A stretch of DNA of 47,875 nt from a virus: positions 1 through 47,875 of IMG/VR virus record IMGVR_UViG_3300021349_000004; one strand, written 5' to 3'. The position numbers were made by a program, and so were the translations under genes. How positions within the stretch are numbered: position 1 is the first letter of the stretch; each line of letters begins with the position of its first letter. A model generated the notes under the pieces. That model was not told the origin of the DNA and searched no databases. It worked only from the letters and a program-made list of their open reading frames with translations. Shown piece by piece: positions 6,447 through 16,594 of this stretch.

Positions 6447-7454
6447 ATGGCCAGACCCATAAAACAGACAATTGATTGGTTTCCACATTACTGCATCCAT
6501 AAAAGTACGATGTATGTACTTGAACAGCGGCATGGAAACGACGGTTATGCGTTCTGGTTTAAGTTATTGGAAATACTCGGATCAACAGATGGCCATTACA
6601 TAGATACGAATGATGAAATCGTCTGGGAGTTTCTACAGGCAAAAACCCGGTTATCAACCGTAGATTGCGAAGCGATACTAAATTTGCTCTGTAAAATGAA
6701 AGCAATTGACCCTGAATTATGGTCAAAGAGGGTCATTTGGTCTCCAAACTTCATTGAAAACATATCAGAAGCATATAAAAATCGGAAAAGACCGATACCA
6801 CAAAAACCAAGCCATTTTACGTTTCTACGGGTAGAAACCGAGTTTCTACCCGTAGAAACCCAGTTATCACCCGTAGATTACGACCAGCCTACGACCGAAA
6901 ACCGACAGAGTAGAGTAGAGAAGAGTAATAACCCCCCTACCCCCCTTTCCGAAAAAAGGGGGAGTGAGAGTGAAAAAATCTCAAGCAAAGAAAAGCAAAG
7001 CACAGACACAAGCACAAACCTTGAGCAATTGCCTGTTATCGAAAAACAACTCAAGCCAACGAGAGGAATGACAACAAAGCTTCAAATCCTGTTTGATCGT
7101 TTTTGGCTGGCCTATCCCAAACGCATTGCCAAAGCAGTTGCGGCAACAGCGTGGGTAAAGATTGCGCCAGACGACCAACTCGCAGCCGTCATTATCGCGG
7201 CGATTGATCAAGCGAAAAACGCGGATGCCTGGAAACTTGAGGGCGGCAGATTTATTCCAAATCCAGCAACCTGGCTGAATGGCCAATGCTGGCTTGATGA
7301 ACACCAAGTTTCAACATCCTCATTGCCAACCGCCGTAATGCCAAAACGCACATACGTCGATGCAACCGTGGACCTGTACGCAGACAGCAGACAAAACCGA
7401 ACGCCAGAGGGCCTTGTGCCAACTCCTTACTCCCAGTCACCGGCTGGGCCATAA
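6447..7454 (+). CDS. replication initiator / helicase loader, DUF4373 + lambda O-like
   Basis: 335 residues in three parts. Residues 1-115 (MARPIKQTIDWFPHYCIHKS ... GNDGYAFWFKLLEILG) match the DUF4373 (Lin1244/Lin1753-like) winged-helix N-terminus of phage replication proteins. Residues about 116-190 are a variable linker coded by origin-like iterons. Residues about 210-285 (FDRFWLAYPKRIAKAVAATA ... GRFIPNPATWLNGQCWLDE) are the C-terminal domain common to lambda O/P22 gp18-type initiators and DnaT-like loaders. It should bind the iterons and bring in the DnaB encoded just downstream. Its last 20 codons fall in a tandem-repeat region, so the C-terminus may have been altered. Confidence 0.8.
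   Translation: MARPIKQTIDWFPHYCIHKSTMYVLEQRHGNDGYAFWFKLLEILGSTDGHYIDTNDEIVWEFLQAKTRLSTVDCEAILNLLCKMKAIDPELWSKRVIWSPNFIENISEAYKNRKRPIPQKPSHFTFLRVETEFLPVETQLSPVDYDQPTTENRQSRVEKSNNPPTPLSEKRGSESEKISSKEKQSTDTSTNLEQLPVIEKQLKPTRGMTTKLQILFDRFWLAYPKRIAKAVAATAWVKIAPDDQLAAVIIAAIDQAKNADAWKLEGGRFIPNPATWLNGQCWLDEHQVSTSSLPTAVMPKRTYVDATVDLYADSRQNRTPEGLVPTPYSQSPAGP
6821..6880. repeat. 21-bp-spaced palindromic iterons, putative phage origin
   Basis: Two perfect palindromes, GTTTCTAC-GG-GTAGAAAC at 6821-6838 and GTTTCTAC-CC-GTAGAAAC at 6842-6859, plus a degenerate third copy from 6863 (GTTATCACCCGTAGAT). The starts are exactly 21 bp apart (6821, 6842, 6863), two helical turns, so all copies face the same side. 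They lie inside the initiator gene, as in lambdoid origins, and are followed by purine-rich sequence. Confidence 0.65.
6941..6962 (+). repeat. C5T3/A3G5 hairpin inside the initiator gene
   Basis: CCCCCTTT pairs with AAAGGGGG across the loop CCGAAA. It lies about 60 bp after the iterons within coding sequence, in a stretch of mono-base tracts. Could be part of the origin (strand opening or primer site) or a pause site. Confidence 0.5.
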
Positions 7455-7620
7455 GTACGGCACCGCACCTCAGAAACCGAACGCCAGAGGGCCTTAGTGC
7501 CAATAACTCCGTACGCCCAGCCATGAGCTGGCTAAATACGGCGGCGGCACCGCACCTCAGAAACCGAACGCCAGAGAACATTGCTCCAAACTTCCAGCCA
7601 GTACGCTGGGCCATGCGGAA
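7394..7620. repeat. 2.7 imperfect tandem repeats of 80-87 bp
   Basis: Copies start at 7394, 7474 and 7561 with the shared beginning AAACCGAACGCCAGAG. Copies 1 and 2 share the end CGGCACCGCACCTCAG. Each copy holds a small hairpin with the same stem but a different loop (CCCAG/CTGGG in copy 1, CCAGC/GCTGG in copies 2 and 3). The array covers the last codons of the initiator gene and the gap before dnaB. No transposase or known repeat family is recognised. Confidence 0.65.
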
Positions 7621-7719: not shown

Positions 7720-9087
7720 ATGAAGCGAAACACAACAAAACCACAGGCAGAATTTGAAAAGCCATTCGGGCTTGAGACTTTGCCAAACGCGACAATCGCA
7801 GAGGAAAGCCTGCTCTCAGCATGTTTTCAAAGCATCGAAGACACACTGACCGCAACGGATTTTATCTCCGAAGACGATTTTTATCTCGAAAAACACAGGC
7901 GGATATTTACCGCGATGAAAAAAGTTGCAACAAGCCATAATGCCAGGAAAACAGGGATGCTCGATTACGCTGAGCTTATCTCCGCCATGACAGGCACAAA
8001 TATCGACAATCCAGCGTTGTATCTGGCCGGGCTTGTCGCTGATGTGCCATTGGCCGTAAATATCGAACATACAGCAGGGATTATCAAGCAAAAGGCAATT
8101 TTGAGACAGACAATCGGGATTGCTTACGCCGGAGTTCGAGAGTGCATGTCCTGCAATGGGGATGCCCCCGCAGTTATCGACAGGCTACAGCAAAACATCC
8201 TGAGTGTCGGATCAATCGAGACATCTGGAAACGATGCCGTTCATGTCGGGAGCCTCTTTGAATCTGCAATTGACAGATATGAGGCTGCATCATTGACCAC
8301 CGGGATAACCGGGGTTACGTCTGGATACCCGGATATCGATCACATAACGTCCGGATTTCAACCTGGGGATATGGTCATTCTGGCGGCACGGCCTGGGATG
8401 GGGAAAACAGCACTTGCATTAAACATTGCCCAAAACGCGGCGGAATCCGGGACCCCCGTCTCGTTCTTTTCGCTGGAAATGGGGAAAAACCAACTCATGA
8501 CCCGTTTGATCGCAGGTGAGACTGGTATTAACTCGCGCCGGCTTGAATCAGGCAGGTTATCCACTGGTGATTGGGATACGCTAACCGGGATAAACCAGTC
8601 AATCAGCAGTCTGCCGCTTTACATCGACGATACCGCAGACCTACATTTCAGCGGATTCAGACGGAAACTCCGGATAGCTTTTAAAAAACAGGGGGTTAGG
8701 TTCGCTGTTATTGACTATATCGGCCTGATGAAAGGCGAAATGTCTTATGGCAACCGCGTTGAGGAAGTATCAAGTGTCTCCAGGGCGATAAAAATGACAG
8801 CTAAGGAGCTTAATATCCCGATTTTGGTTTTGTCACAACTAAACCGCAACCTCGAAGCCCGATTCGATAAACACCCAATGCTGTCGGACTTGCGGGAATC
8901 AGGGGCGCTGGAACAGGACGCAGATGTAGTGATGCTACTGTACCGGGAAGAAATGTACAAAAAAACAGACGAAACCAGAGGCACAGCAGAGCTTGAAATC
9001 GCCAAACACAGAAACGGCGCTTGCGGTATTGCAAGGCTGGCCTTTGATGCCACAGTAACTACGTTCAAAAACCTGTATAGGGGATAA
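7720..9087 (+). CDS. dnaB: replicative DNA helicase DnaB
   Basis: 455 residues. N-terminal DnaB domain (LPNATIAEESLLSACFQSIE), linker helix, then the RecA-fold with Walker A ARPGMGKT at residues 223-230, SFFSLEMGKNQLMTRLIAGE (H1a), Walker B FAVIDYIGLM, and LSQLNRNLEARFDKHPMLSD/LRESGALEQDADVVMLLYRE (H3, H4). Unwinds DNA at the phage fork as a hexamer. Start at 7720 because AGAGGGGAATC precedes the ATG; the longer frame from 7672 runs into repeat sequence. The initiator upstream probably loads it, and SSB follows. Confidence 0.96.
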   Translation: MKRNTTKPQAEFEKPFGLETLPNATIAEESLLSACFQSIEDTLTATDFISEDDFYLEKHRRIFTAMKKVATSHNARKTGMLDYAELISAMTGTNIDNPALYLAGLVADVPLAVNIEHTAGIIKQKAILRQTIGIAYAGVRECMSCNGDAPAVIDRLQQNILSVGSIETSGNDAVHVGSLFESAIDRYEAASLTTGITGVTSGYPDIDHITSGFQPGDMVILAARPGMGKTALALNIAQNAAESGTPVSFFSLEMGKNQLMTRLIAGETGINSRRLESGRLSTGDWDTLTGINQSISSLPLYIDDTADLHFSGFRRKLRIAFKKQGVRFAVIDYIGLMKGEMSYGNRVEEVSSVSRAIKMTAKELNIPILVLSQLNRNLEARFDKHPMLSDLRESGALEQDADVVMLLYREEMYKKTDETRGTAELEIAKHRNGACGIARLAFDATVTTFKNLYRG

Positions 9088-9096
9088 AAAAACACA

Positions 9097-9525
9097 ATGG
9101 CGAATGACCTCAACAAAGCATTTTTGATCTGCCGACTCGGGAGAGACCCCGAGACCAAAACCCTGCCAAACGGCGATACAGTCTGCTCTTTCTCGGTCGC
9201 AACAGGCGAATCGTGGAAAGATAAATCCGGCAACAAACAGGAGCGGACTACCTGGCACAACATTGTAATTTATCGAAAACTCGCTGAAATAGCAGGCAAA
9301 TATTTGAAAAAAGGCTCACGAATTCATCTTGAGGGTAAAATCCAAAACCGTGAATACGAGAAAGACGGACAAAAGCGATATATCTCAGAGATTATCTGCT
9401 CTGACTTCCAGATGCTCGACAGCAAAAGCGACGGACCTGGGTCTGGGAACGGCGGCAGCAATGGCGGCGGGAACGACGGCAATGCTTACAGACCACCGGC
9501 TCTCGAAGATGACATCCCGTTTTGA
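9097..9525 (+). CDS. ssb: single-stranded DNA-binding protein SSB
   Basis: 142 residues. OB-fold N-terminus (NKAFLICRLGRDPETKTLPN, then TTWHNIVIYRKLAEIAGKYL), glycine-rich linker, and acidic tip DDIPF that docks repair and replication partners. Nine bases after dnaB; its end overlaps the longer frame of the RusA gene. Coats ssDNA during phage replication. Confidence 0.96.
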   Translation: MANDLNKAFLICRLGRDPETKTLPNGDTVCSFSVATGESWKDKSGNKQERTTWHNIVIYRKLAEIAGKYLKKGSRIHLEGKIQNREYEKDGQKRYISEIICSDFQMLDSKSDGPGSGNGGSNGGGNDGNAYRPPALEDDIPF

Positions 9526-9542
9526 TCAAAGGAAAAACACAG

Positions 9543-10004
9543 ATGAACCTTGAATCAAACACAATCTCCCTGATGATCCCCGGACAGCCGGTCGCCAAGA
9601 ACCGCCCCCGGTTCACCAGGGTCGGTAAAGGCGTTCGGGCCTATAGCGACCAGGGCGATGAAGAACAGTTATGGGTGATGGTTGCACGACAACAGCTCAA
9701 AGAACTCGCTGTACGTCATTTCAGTGACGCTGTTGCCTTGAATGTTGTGTTCTGGATGAAGCGTCCCGCCAGCCATTTCGGAACCGGCAAGAATACCGGT
9801 GTCCTCAAGGCATCTGCTCCGTCCGCCCCTGTAATACGTCCCGACACAGACAACTTTTTGAAGCATGTCATGGACTGTCTGAATCATTGCTCAGTGTGGC
9901 AAGACGATTCTTTCGTTGTCGGTATCGACGCCCGAAAACGTTATGCACTGCCCGGCACTGAGCCACGGACAGAATTGGTGTTGCGTGAGGTGATTGATGT
10001 CTGA
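9543..10004 (+). CDS. rusA: RusA-family Holliday junction resolvase
   Basis: 153 residues from MNLESNTISLMIPGQPVAKN. Pattern PGQPVAKNRPRFT near the start and RPDTDNFLKHVMDCLN with two Asp at residues 101 and 103, then WQDDSFVVGI, as in RusA, whose acidic residues bind the metal for junction cleavage. RBS AAAGGAAAA before the ATG at 9543; the frame opens earlier at 9522. Resolves recombination intermediates or branched replication products before packaging. Confidence 0.92.
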   Translation: MNLESNTISLMIPGQPVAKNRPRFTRVGKGVRAYSDQGDEEQLWVMVARQQLKELAVRHFSDAVALNVVFWMKRPASHFGTGKNTGVLKASAPSAPVIRPDTDNFLKHVMDCLNHCSVWQDDSFVVGIDARKRYALPGTEPRTELVLREVIDV

Positions 10005-13932: not shown

Positions 13933-14118
13933 ATGGCGATCCTGACGATATCTGAAATCGTGGACCTAATTGAATCATTTGCGAATCAATATGTTGGGGT
14001 CGATCCCAAATTACATCATCCAGACCCCAGCGCACGCCTGCATGGTGCCGGAATGCTTATTGATGCTGAAATCATGCGTAGAATGGCCAAGATAAATGAA
14101 ACACAGCATCCTGAATGA
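13933..14118 (+). CDS. hypothetical protein (61 aa)
   Basis: MAILTISEIVDLIESFANQY, then a helix with HGAGMLIDAEIMRRMAKINE. Starts one base after the previous stop and overlaps the terminase gene by 23 bases. Function unknown; could be a small packaging accessory. Confidence 0.55.
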   Translation: MAILTISEIVDLIESFANQYVGVDPKLHHPDPSARLHGAGMLIDAEIMRRMAKINETQHPE

Positions 14119-16594
14119 TAAGCGGTATCATGATTTTTGCGCCAGATACCGGGGGAACCTTGTCCGGTACGTGGCGGAATTAAGTAGGTATCCCATGACG
14201 TGGCAGCAATACGATATTTTTAACGCTATCCAGGAATTGGGCAGTCAGACGGCGTTTGCAAGCGGCCATGGTTGTTTTGGAATCAATACTGAAATACTTA
14301 TGTTTGACGGGTCTATTAAGCCGGTTCAAGACATAATGGTTGGCGATAAAATAATGGGTGATGACAGCTCATGCCGGAATGTCCTTTCGTTGTGCCGTGG
14401 GACAGAACCCATGTACCGGTTTGAATATATGGATGGAACTTCACATGTATTCAATGAAAGTCATGTTCTTTGCCTTGTTGCCACACAAACGCATTGTAAA
14501 GCCCAAACATCTGGAAGTAGATATTATCCTGTTGTACGCGATTGGCTACAATGGAGTGACCGCAGAAAACGTACTCACGCGATAATACGATCAGGAGTAG
14601 AATTCAGTAATGACAAAAAGCTCCTTATCCCACCGTACATTTTGGGCGTTTGGCTTGGAGACGGGCATAGTGGTAGCACCCATATCACGAACCCTGACCA
14701 TGAAATAATCACTGCGTTTGCGAATTATTGCAAAGATTCAAATCTTAACTTTAATTATTCAGAAAGATTCCTTTATTCAATAACCGGGAACGGTTCAGGC
14801 CGTAGCAAGAACCCACTGTTAACCATTTTACAGAATTATGATTTAATAGAAAATAAACACATCCCATTTGATTATTTAACAGCATCATATAATGACCGTA
14901 TTGAGCTGCTTGCTGGGCTGTTGGACTCGGACGGTTATCTCGAAAGCAGAGATAAACGGACGTTTGAGATCACCCAAAAAAATGAGCAATTGGCCAAGAA
15001 TATAGTTTTTTTGGCACGATCTGTCGGCTGCCATGCAACAATAAAAAAAATAGACAAATCGTGCATACATAAGGGGACAAGACGATGGGGTGAATACTTC
15101 ATCGTTTTAATCAGCAGGAATATTGAAAAAATACCAAACAGAGTAGAAAGAAAGAAAGCATCACATATTGATAACGCACAACGGTCTAACCTCCATTATG
15201 GGATCAGGTCAGTTGAGCCGTTGGGCGAGGGATTATATTATGGGTTTGTCTTGGATGGAAACCAGCGTTTTTTAGGCGGAGATTTTACCATCCTTCACAA
15301 TTCCGGAAAATCTCACGGAATCGCTTGGATACTTGACTGGCACCTGCGGACGTATGACGACTCAAACGCCATGATCACAGCCACCAACATCGAGCAAATA
15401 CGGTCAGTCGTTTGGAAAGAATTGGATACCGTCATTGCGGATGTCAACCGTGGATACCCGTGGATGGTTGACTGGTTTATCAAGGAAACAAAACGATATT
15501 ATGTTAAAGGACATAAAGACAGTTGGTATGTCATTCCAAAAACAGCATCGAAAGCCGCGCCTGAAAACATTGCAGGCCAGCATAGACGGCATTACATCTG
15601 CATTGTGGATGAGGCGTCAGGTGTCGAAGACGAAATCATTGGGGTACTTCGTGGAGCGCTTACCCATGAGGAAAACCGCTTTGCCATGTTCAGCCAACCA
15701 ACCCGGCAGGTCGGGCATTTTGCAGAAGCGTTTTCCTCACTGAAATCACTGTACAAAACCTTCAACCTGAATTCAGAAGAAAGTCCAATTGTCTCAAGAA
15801 AGTTTATCCATGACAAATTGGTTGAATACGGCGGGCATCACTCGCCGGAATATCAGATTAAAGTACTGGGGCGTCTTCCGGATAACCTATCTGGGTTTTT
15901 GATCCCCAAAAGCTGGTGTACCCAGGCGCAGGCAGTATTGATTGAGCATGAGCAGCCTTGGGGATGGGTGATGACGGCGGACGTGGCGGAAGGTGTTCAC
16001 CGGGATTCATCTGTGTGGACATTGGCAAGGGTGTCGGGATATGGCGCAGCTCGCAAGATCGAAGTCATTGACATGAGAGAATCCCTTGGTTCTGATGAGT
16101 TGGTTTTTGCCAGGGAAATGTATTCTGAAATCGTGAAATACCCCAGAATAACTGTTGCAGTTGATGCAGACGGCCCGGGCCGGACGGTGATTTTAACGCT
16201 GGAAGAGCTGGGCGTGACTGTCGAACGAATTCACTGGGGGCTGCCCCCACATGCGGACGCGGACAGAAAGAGATATAAAAACCAGCGGGCTTATGCCTCG
16301 GTTAAAGCGCGTGAGGCTATTCTTGACGATCGGTTCCGGATATGCCCCGGCACAAAGATCGTCAACCAGGCATCCAGAATTCCGTATAAAATTGATGAGG
16401 CTGGCAGGTATGCAATCATGCCCAAAGAGCAAATGAAATCACAGGGTATCAAGTCTCCTGATTTGTTTGACACCCATTGCTTTTTCTTTTTGTGCGACTA
16501 TGTACCGGCTGATACTGATGGCGATAATCAAAACCAATATGCAGATGATTTAACCGCATGGGCGGTCAAAATACTTGAAGGGGAACCGGCGTGA
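14096..16594 (+). CDS. terL: terminase large subunit with an in-frame intein
   Basis: 832-residue precursor. Exteins: residues 1-59 and 403-832 (489 residues after splicing). The Walker A loop is rebuilt at the junction as ASGHG + SGKSHG. Walker B YICIVDE is at residues 500-506 of the precursor. The nuclease domain shows TADVAEGVHRDSS (Asp629), VAVDADGPG (Asp690/692) and KSPDLFDTH (Asp789/792). The ATPase pumps DNA into the prohead and the RNase H-like nuclease cuts the concatemer. Without splicing the P-loop is broken, so packaging depends on intein removal. Followed by an overlapping GTG-start gene. Confidence 0.95.
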   Translation: MKHSILNDKRYHDFCARYRGNLVRYVAELSRYPMTWQQYDIFNAIQELGSQTAFASGHGCFGINTEILMFDGSIKPVQDIMVGDKIMGDDSSCRNVLSLCRGTEPMYRFEYMDGTSHVFNESHVLCLVATQTHCKAQTSGSRYYPVVRDWLQWSDRRKRTHAIIRSGVEFSNDKKLLIPPYILGVWLGDGHSGSTHITNPDHEIITAFANYCKDSNLNFNYSERFLYSITGNGSGRSKNPLLTILQNYDLIENKHIPFDYLTASYNDRIELLAGLLDSDGYLESRDKRTFEITQKNEQLAKNIVFLARSVGCHATIKKIDKSCIHKGTRRWGEYFIVLISRNIEKIPNRVERKKASHIDNAQRSNLHYGIRSVEPLGEGLYYGFVLDGNQRFLGGDFTILHNSGKSHGIAWILDWHLRTYDDSNAMITATNIEQIRSVVWKELDTVIADVNRGYPWMVDWFIKETKRYYVKGHKDSWYVIPKTASKAAPENIAGQHRRHYICIVDEASGVEDEIIGVLRGALTHEENRFAMFSQPTRQVGHFAEAFSSLKSLYKTFNLNSEESPIVSRKFIHDKLVEYGGHHSPEYQIKVLGRLPDNLSGFLIPKSWCTQAQAVLIEHEQPWGWVMTADVAEGVHRDSSVWTLARVSGYGAARKIEVIDMRESLGSDELVFAREMYSEIVKYPRITVAVDADGPGRTVILTLEELGVTVERIHWGLPPHADADRKRYKNQRAYASVKAREAILDDRFRICPGTKIVNQASRIPYKIDEAGRYAIMPKEQMKSQGIKSPDLFDTHCFFFLCDYVPADTDGDNQNQYADDLTAWAVKILEGEPA
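14273..15301 (+). mobile_element. intein with LAGLIDADG homing endonuclease in TerL P-loop
   Basis: 343 residues, Cys60 to Asn402 of the precursor, followed by Ser403 as +1 residue. Block A: CFGINTEILMFDGSIKPVQD. Block B region: FNESHVLCL, with the usual Thr position being Asn. Endonuclease blocks: ILGVWLGDGHSG and ELLAGLLDSDGYLE, the two LAGLIDADG motifs. Blocks F/G: YYGFVLDGNQRFLGGD, then FTILHN at the C-terminal splice site. All splicing residues (Cys1, penultimate His, Asn, Ser+1) are present, so it should be active in both splicing and homing. Confidence 0.93.

Follow-up and report, generated by a model that had tools for sequence, protein, structure and literature searches.

Why should the gene for a phage replication initiator carry phased dyadic repeats in its linker-coding part: do they serve the protein, or is the DNA itself an origin of replication? 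We addressed this question in a stretch of 47,875 nucleotides (the window) belonging to an IMG/VR virus record that carries tail sheath and baseplate genes. The analysis predicts, with a probability of roughly 0.8, that the phage replicates from an origin at positions 6821-6931, inside the part of the initiator gene that encodes the linker. The features are as follows.

6447..7454, + strand: replication initiator gene, 335 aa, with a PF14297 Lin1244_N N-domain (aa 12-100) and a variable C-terminal domain
6821-6838, + strand: iteron 1, GTTTCTAC-GG-GTAGAAAC, 8-2-8 dyad; full 18-mer GTTTCTACGGGTAGAAAC
6842-6859, + strand: iteron 2, GTTTCTAC-CC-GTAGAAAC, 8-2-8 dyad; full 18-mer GTTTCTACCCGTAGAAAC
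6863-6880, + strand: decayed third site, GTTATCACCCGTAGATTA, in 21-bp phase (+42)
6909-6928, + strand: pentanucleotide ladder AGTAG-AGTAG-AGAAG-AGTAA, which reads SRVEKSN, its third pentamer stop-avoiding; 49 bp after iteron 2
6932-6962, + strand: C-run pair and G/C-rich hairpin, CCCCCCTACCCCCC...AAAAAAGGGGG, just 3' of the ladder
7720..9087, + strand: replicative helicase gene dnaB, directly downstream of the initiator gene
9522-10004: RusA resolvase gene, beyond dnaB

The initiator is a member of the Lin1244_N family, as it matches PF14297 with an E-value of 3.5e-8 and 34.5 bits (gathering cut-off 25). This is its only Pfam match, neither PF04492 (lambda O) nor Rep_Org_C being found in it, and in PHROG it matches replication initiation and primosomal families. 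A structure model of the N-domain (pLDDT 86.5) is helical with a wing-like strand pair, which suggests a DNA-binding fold; PDB sequence and fold searches gave nothing significant, the model having no match better than E 0.89. The dnaB product matches PF03796 (E 6.4e-93) and PF00772, and its start at 7720 is an ATG within an open frame listed from 7672. A DnaB/DnaC-like gene lies on the same strand at 46 of 106 loci, at a median of 955 nt from the start of the initiator gene. The GC-skew minimum is at 8.0 kb, 1.15 kb from the element; since the coding strand switches at about 5.5 kb, skew is confounded by gene orientation and uninformative here, and we rejected it as an origin marker.

We also noted other features of this DNA. 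Two identical 32-bp copies of CGGCACCGCACCTCAGAAACCGAACGCCAGAG (7458, 7545) lie between the initiator gene and dnaB, and a 63% copy at 7378 lies inside the 3' end of the initiator gene, the copies being spaced by 80 and 87 bp (7378-7576 in the window). The large terminase gene (14096-16594) contains an apparent intein (Hom_end_hint, Hom_end, LAGLIDADG), and a ParA-like partition protein encoded on the opposite strand (199-1218, -) suggests a plasmid-like prophage state. A near-identical record, G001, has 75,154 bp.

The earlier note had described two perfect 18-bp palindromes and a decayed third, phased at exactly 21 bp and giving seven-residue repeats in the linker. The phasing is exact at 6821-6838 and 6842-6859, the third site retains 10 of 16 positions, and the residues FLRVETE/FLPVETQ/LSPVDYD form the protein repeat; the palindromes are perfect in their 8-bp arms but not in their 2-bp centres (GG, CC), each iteron being symmetric at 16 of 18 positions. 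The two iterons are exact reverse complements with 3 nt between them, and together they make a perfect 18-bp inverted repeat with a 3-nt loop, strong as RNA. A candidate fourth site at +63 keeps 5 of 16 positions, the chance level, and was discarded. Allowing up to three mismatches, the 47.9-kb window contains three copies of the iteron motif where 0.17 would be expected, with both exact copies in the linker, and none of 20,000 within-gene synonymous-codon permutations retained both. The third match (6629-6646, two mismatches) falls within the N-domain, in its conserved FLxAKT codons. In 24 of 66 genes of relatives the Leu codon of this region (gene nt 183) is CTA, compared with 13% of Leu codons gene-wide; the linker repeats may derive from these iteron-like codons, or the codons may act as one more weak site.

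Whole-protein searches for near relatives returned the window's own record only, and an alignment of the N-domain was needed. Relatives were gathered by the N-domain alone, yielding 126 genes, 107 of them non-redundant. The lack of iterons in relatives had been named in advance as a result that would speak against an origin, and it was not what we observed. The closest relative, L021 (N-domain 67% identical), has two degenerate sites that are also in 21-bp phase, and the form GTTTC-N8-GAAAC recurs in many Lin1244_N linkers: 20 of the 107 genes have 23 such sites in their linkers, whereas synonymous permutations give 1.8 (maximum 5) and the other gene parts contain 2. Many of the 107 relatives have no recognisable sites. 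An exact scan of IMG/VR with the 18-mer GTTTCTACNNGTAGAAAC found 17 stretches; besides the window's record, the motif lies in the Lin1244_N linkers of L005, L006, L008, L009, L010 and L013, mostly phages with other C-domains, where the site is translated as FLPVET or as VSTSRN, depending on the phage.

Across the 107-gene set, the linker sites fall in reading frames 0, 1 and 2 in 15, 7 and 10 cases. Their spacings (n=19) are 21, 31, 32, 33, 42, 64 and 74 bp, that is, about multiples of 10.5 bp; 32 bp is the commonest (13/19), and 16 of the 19 are not multiples of 3. The use of three frames, the spacing by helical turns and the excess over synonymous controls indicate a constraint on the DNA, and the repeat of seven residues in the protein of this phage is a by-product, because most relatives space their sites by 32 bp, which is not a multiple of 3. 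Mapped on the N-domain tree, iteron class required 10 changes, compared with 23.7 after shuffling, so that the clustering is real but noisy. Iteron class differs in 41 of 202 close pairs, and the domain-swap statistics (iteron class against N- or C-domain) are too noisy to prove recognition. A general palindrome score around ladders showed a small excess only, and therefore subfamily-specific motifs were used instead. Additionally, at six loci (L002, L007, L012, L015, L016, L017) the same dyad is followed by an AAAAG pentamer tract with no obvious initiator ORF around it, which looks like a related origin of a different phage group.

The more widespread half of the element, missed by the earlier note, is the pentanucleotide ladder. 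The ladder of the window is short, with four pentamers and 14 of 20 matches at lag 5, a value reached by 1.3% of synonymous permutations (p about 0.013). Among the 107 genes selected by their N-domain, 67 have at least 16 of 20 lag-5 matches in the linker, with none elsewhere in the genes and 4.8 in synonymous permutations; the ladder is absent from about 28 of the 107, which are on average GC-richer. The periodicity peaks at lags 5, 10 and 15, and no gene among the 107 is strong at lag 3, so that the trinucleotide periodicity of the DnaA-trio is not seen. Variants found 3' of the sites, such as AGTAA-AGTAA-AGGAA, ACTAA-ACTAA-AGGAA, AGTAG-AGTAG-AGGAG and six copies of GGAAA, are purine-rich, and in 79 relatives the purine content of the coding strand is 81% at the ladder versus 58% gene-wide, making this a strand-asymmetric region. 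The gap between the last site and the ladder is mostly 6 bp (nine cases), with others of 27, 37-39 and 48-49 bp; these correspond to 6 bp or 6 bp plus whole turns, and the window has 49.

The link between sites, ladder and initiator was found from other starting points too. A degenerate-ladder scan of IMG/VR gave 80 loci that we examined among the matches listed: all 80 tracts are open in one frame, two of them in frames shorter than 15 codons, and 59 of the 63 non-redundant proteins among these matches are Lin1244_N. In the reverse test, loci were chosen by the dyad alone, and beside the site 12 of the 17 show a strong period-5 tract, in addition to the window's own record. The in-gene ladders have AGTAA 181 times at pentamer position 0 and 170 times at position 1, with AGGAA (111) or AGAAA (22) at position 2; as the scan pattern required AGRAR at one of these positions, the independent part of the count is that of the flanking pentamers. 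Whichever frame it is read in, a pure AGTAA run reaches a TAA stop within 15 nt, and with AGGAA or AGAAA as every third pentamer the in-gene form avoids an in-frame stop. The in-gene (AGTAA)n is a DNA element whose sole open frame, with altered third pentamers, is SKVKE.

Just 3' of the ladder, the C-run pair and hairpin recur in 6 of 83 ladder genes (the window, L021, L022, L035, L096 and L120) and in none of 324 control windows from the same genes, as well as at the non-coding locus L419, and they are a possible third origin element. Pure (AGTAA)4-12 runs are present in non-coding phage DNA, and 10 of the 22 loci with such runs have a significant repeat array directly on their 5' side. The array consists of GTTTCCG...CGGAAAC repeats at L417, of GTTTAGGGGTACGTAAAC repeats at L420, 0.7 kb past a Lin1244_N match, and of AACGTATACATT repeats at L404, near Lin1244_N and DnaB matches. 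The rest of the 22 loci are mostly unrelated-looking or low-complexity.

In-gene iteron origins are already known. The lambda origin has four annotated 18-bp iterons in gene O, and after these comes an A+T region, purine-rich and strand-asymmetric, at which the DNA opens (PMC5043065). Like lambda, the window has phased dyadic repeats inside the initiator gene and an adjoining gene for helicase loading; however, lambda O is Phage_rep_O (PF04492) whereas the initiator of the window is PF14297, the iteron sequences differ, and lambda ori lacks a period-5 ladder (13 of 20 at lag 5, the same as at neighbouring lags). The window element would work like lambda ori, but its initiator is not of the O family.

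In lactococcal phages, Tuc2009 ORF16 and TP901-1 ORF13 are reported to bind repeat-rich regions in their own genes, which serve as ori (PMC8965321). The Tuc2009 rep gene (orf16, Rep2009; P335 group), annotated as 'contains origin of replication', has the same order as the window, in-gene repeats and then a period-5 tract, GGATAGGATAGGAGAGGTTAGG, with 17 of 20 matches at lag 5. Among ten Tuc2009 relatives sampled, lag 5 scores highest of lags 3-7 in eight, though the signal is weaker (13-14/20) in some. The Tuc2009 N-domain belongs to a different family (phrog_5708/8489, with an hhalign probability of 27% to Lin1244_N), its pentamer is GGTTA/GGATA instead of the AGTAA of Lin1244_N ladders, and its C-domain, Rep_Org_C, is absent from the window protein but present in L008, which is Lin1244_N. 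The window therefore shares with Tuc2009 the ladder 3' of the repeats, and neither the N-domain family nor Rep_Org_C, and the ladder is not confined to initiators with a Lin1244_N N-domain. When GGWWA pentamers were scanned for, 69 of 80 loci fell in ORFs of at least 150 aa, most of which encode Tuc2009-type initiators (phrog_8489/5708). TP901-1 rep (ORF13) also has an in-gene origin and an HTH-type initiator with a DnaB_2/DnaD C-domain, but differs from the window in its HTH_36 N-domain and in having no period-5 ladder. Judged from sequence, the linker sites of the relatives and the element order of Tuc2009 support the lambda-like, in-gene iteron origin proposed in the earlier note.

Bacterial oriC also places a short-period, strand-specific ladder, the DnaA-trios or the DnaD recognition element, beside double-strand initiator boxes (PMC6669920, PMC10201434). 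Its DnaA-trios have period 3 and the phage ladder period 5, and its boxes are DnaA boxes whereas those of the phages are subfamily-specific dyads. The TnnT core of the DnaD recognition element is abundant on the bottom strand of the phage ladder, with 20.2 per 120 nt against 4.1 on the top strand, a small enrichment over the 18.3 of synonymous controls, and the Tuc2009-type pentamers fit TnnT less well. Reading this bottom strand as DnaD-like (PMC10201434) is attractive, but the excess over the controls is small.

Could the repeats have been kept for the protein, as a flexible or heptad linker (FLPVET, SKVKE) whose DNA repeats came from tandem duplication? The window repeat is indeed in frame, with a period of 21 bp or seven codons. 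Elsewhere the same DNA motif is read in three frames at a commonest spacing that is no codon multiple, it greatly exceeds synonymous permutations, and the same arrays and pure ladders exist in non-coding DNA; this explanation is already largely refuted and we regard it as very improbable. It is also improbable that the initiator controls its own transcription through these sites as an autoregulatory operator or attenuator, the origin being elsewhere. Dyadic, helically phased sites would suit a regulator, as would the strong RNA hairpin that sites 1 and 2 can form, but the hairpin is not common to relatives with 32-bp spacing and an operator deep within a gene would be unusual. Moreover, a strand-asymmetric ladder in fixed register is no feature of an operator, and Tuc2009, whose origin has experimental support, shows the same order of elements.

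The linker could also be a recombination junction, a low-complexity homology for shuffling the N- and C-domains of initiators. The ladder does lie at the boundary of the two domains, and the C-domains are mosaic: of 2133 pairs whose N-domains are at least 55% identical, 1999 have unrelated C-domains. Such mosaicism is expected at an origin anyway, because the N-domain and its iterons should move together, and a junction leaves the dyad symmetry, the helical phasing, the fixed site-ladder register and the non-coding copies unexplained, so that we give this explanation very little weight.

We thus prefer a replication origin at 6821-6931. Its anatomy is conserved under constraint on the DNA, with helical phasing, a site-ladder register, co-occurrence of the two parts and non-coding counterparts; from this we infer that the N-domain binds the iterons and that the ladder is where the DNA melts and the helicase is loaded. 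Dimers of the N-terminal domain would bind the dyadic iterons on one face of the helix and bend the DNA, and the bound initiator would open the adjacent purine-asymmetric pentamer ladder, which is probably a melting or helicase-loading element. Next, the linker and C-terminal domain would pass the exposed strand to the DnaB encoded downstream, either unaided or together with a DnaD/DnaC-like partner.

In the open-access literature we found no description of the pentamer ladder, one in the primary papers on lactococcal phages being possible, and no paper matching DUF4373 in replication or surveys of in-gene origins. Three things look new: how far the element extends among Lin1244_N phages, its phase-locked two-part rule and, most of all, the ladder in its coding and non-coding forms. 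These data suggest that 'SKVKESKVKE', a linker widespread in phage initiators, is a DNA element in its only open frame and not a protein motif. More tentatively, (AGTAA)n and its kin (GGTTA, AAAAG, GGAAA) could be a common, undescribed core element of phage origins, a five-nucleotide counterpart of the DnaA-trio that would be recognised as single-stranded DNA by the initiator C-domain or the helicase loader and reused with interchangeable pairs of N-domain and iterons, its in-gene form being the stop-avoiding SKVKE; we see this as a serious possibility at somewhat less than even odds. The sequence rule of phased 18-bp dyads followed by a ladder at a set distance predicts where origins lie, in genes or outside them, for many phages yet to be characterised, and it raises the testable question of whether a five-nucleotide single-strand ladder opens phage origins as trinucleotide ladders open bacterial ones.
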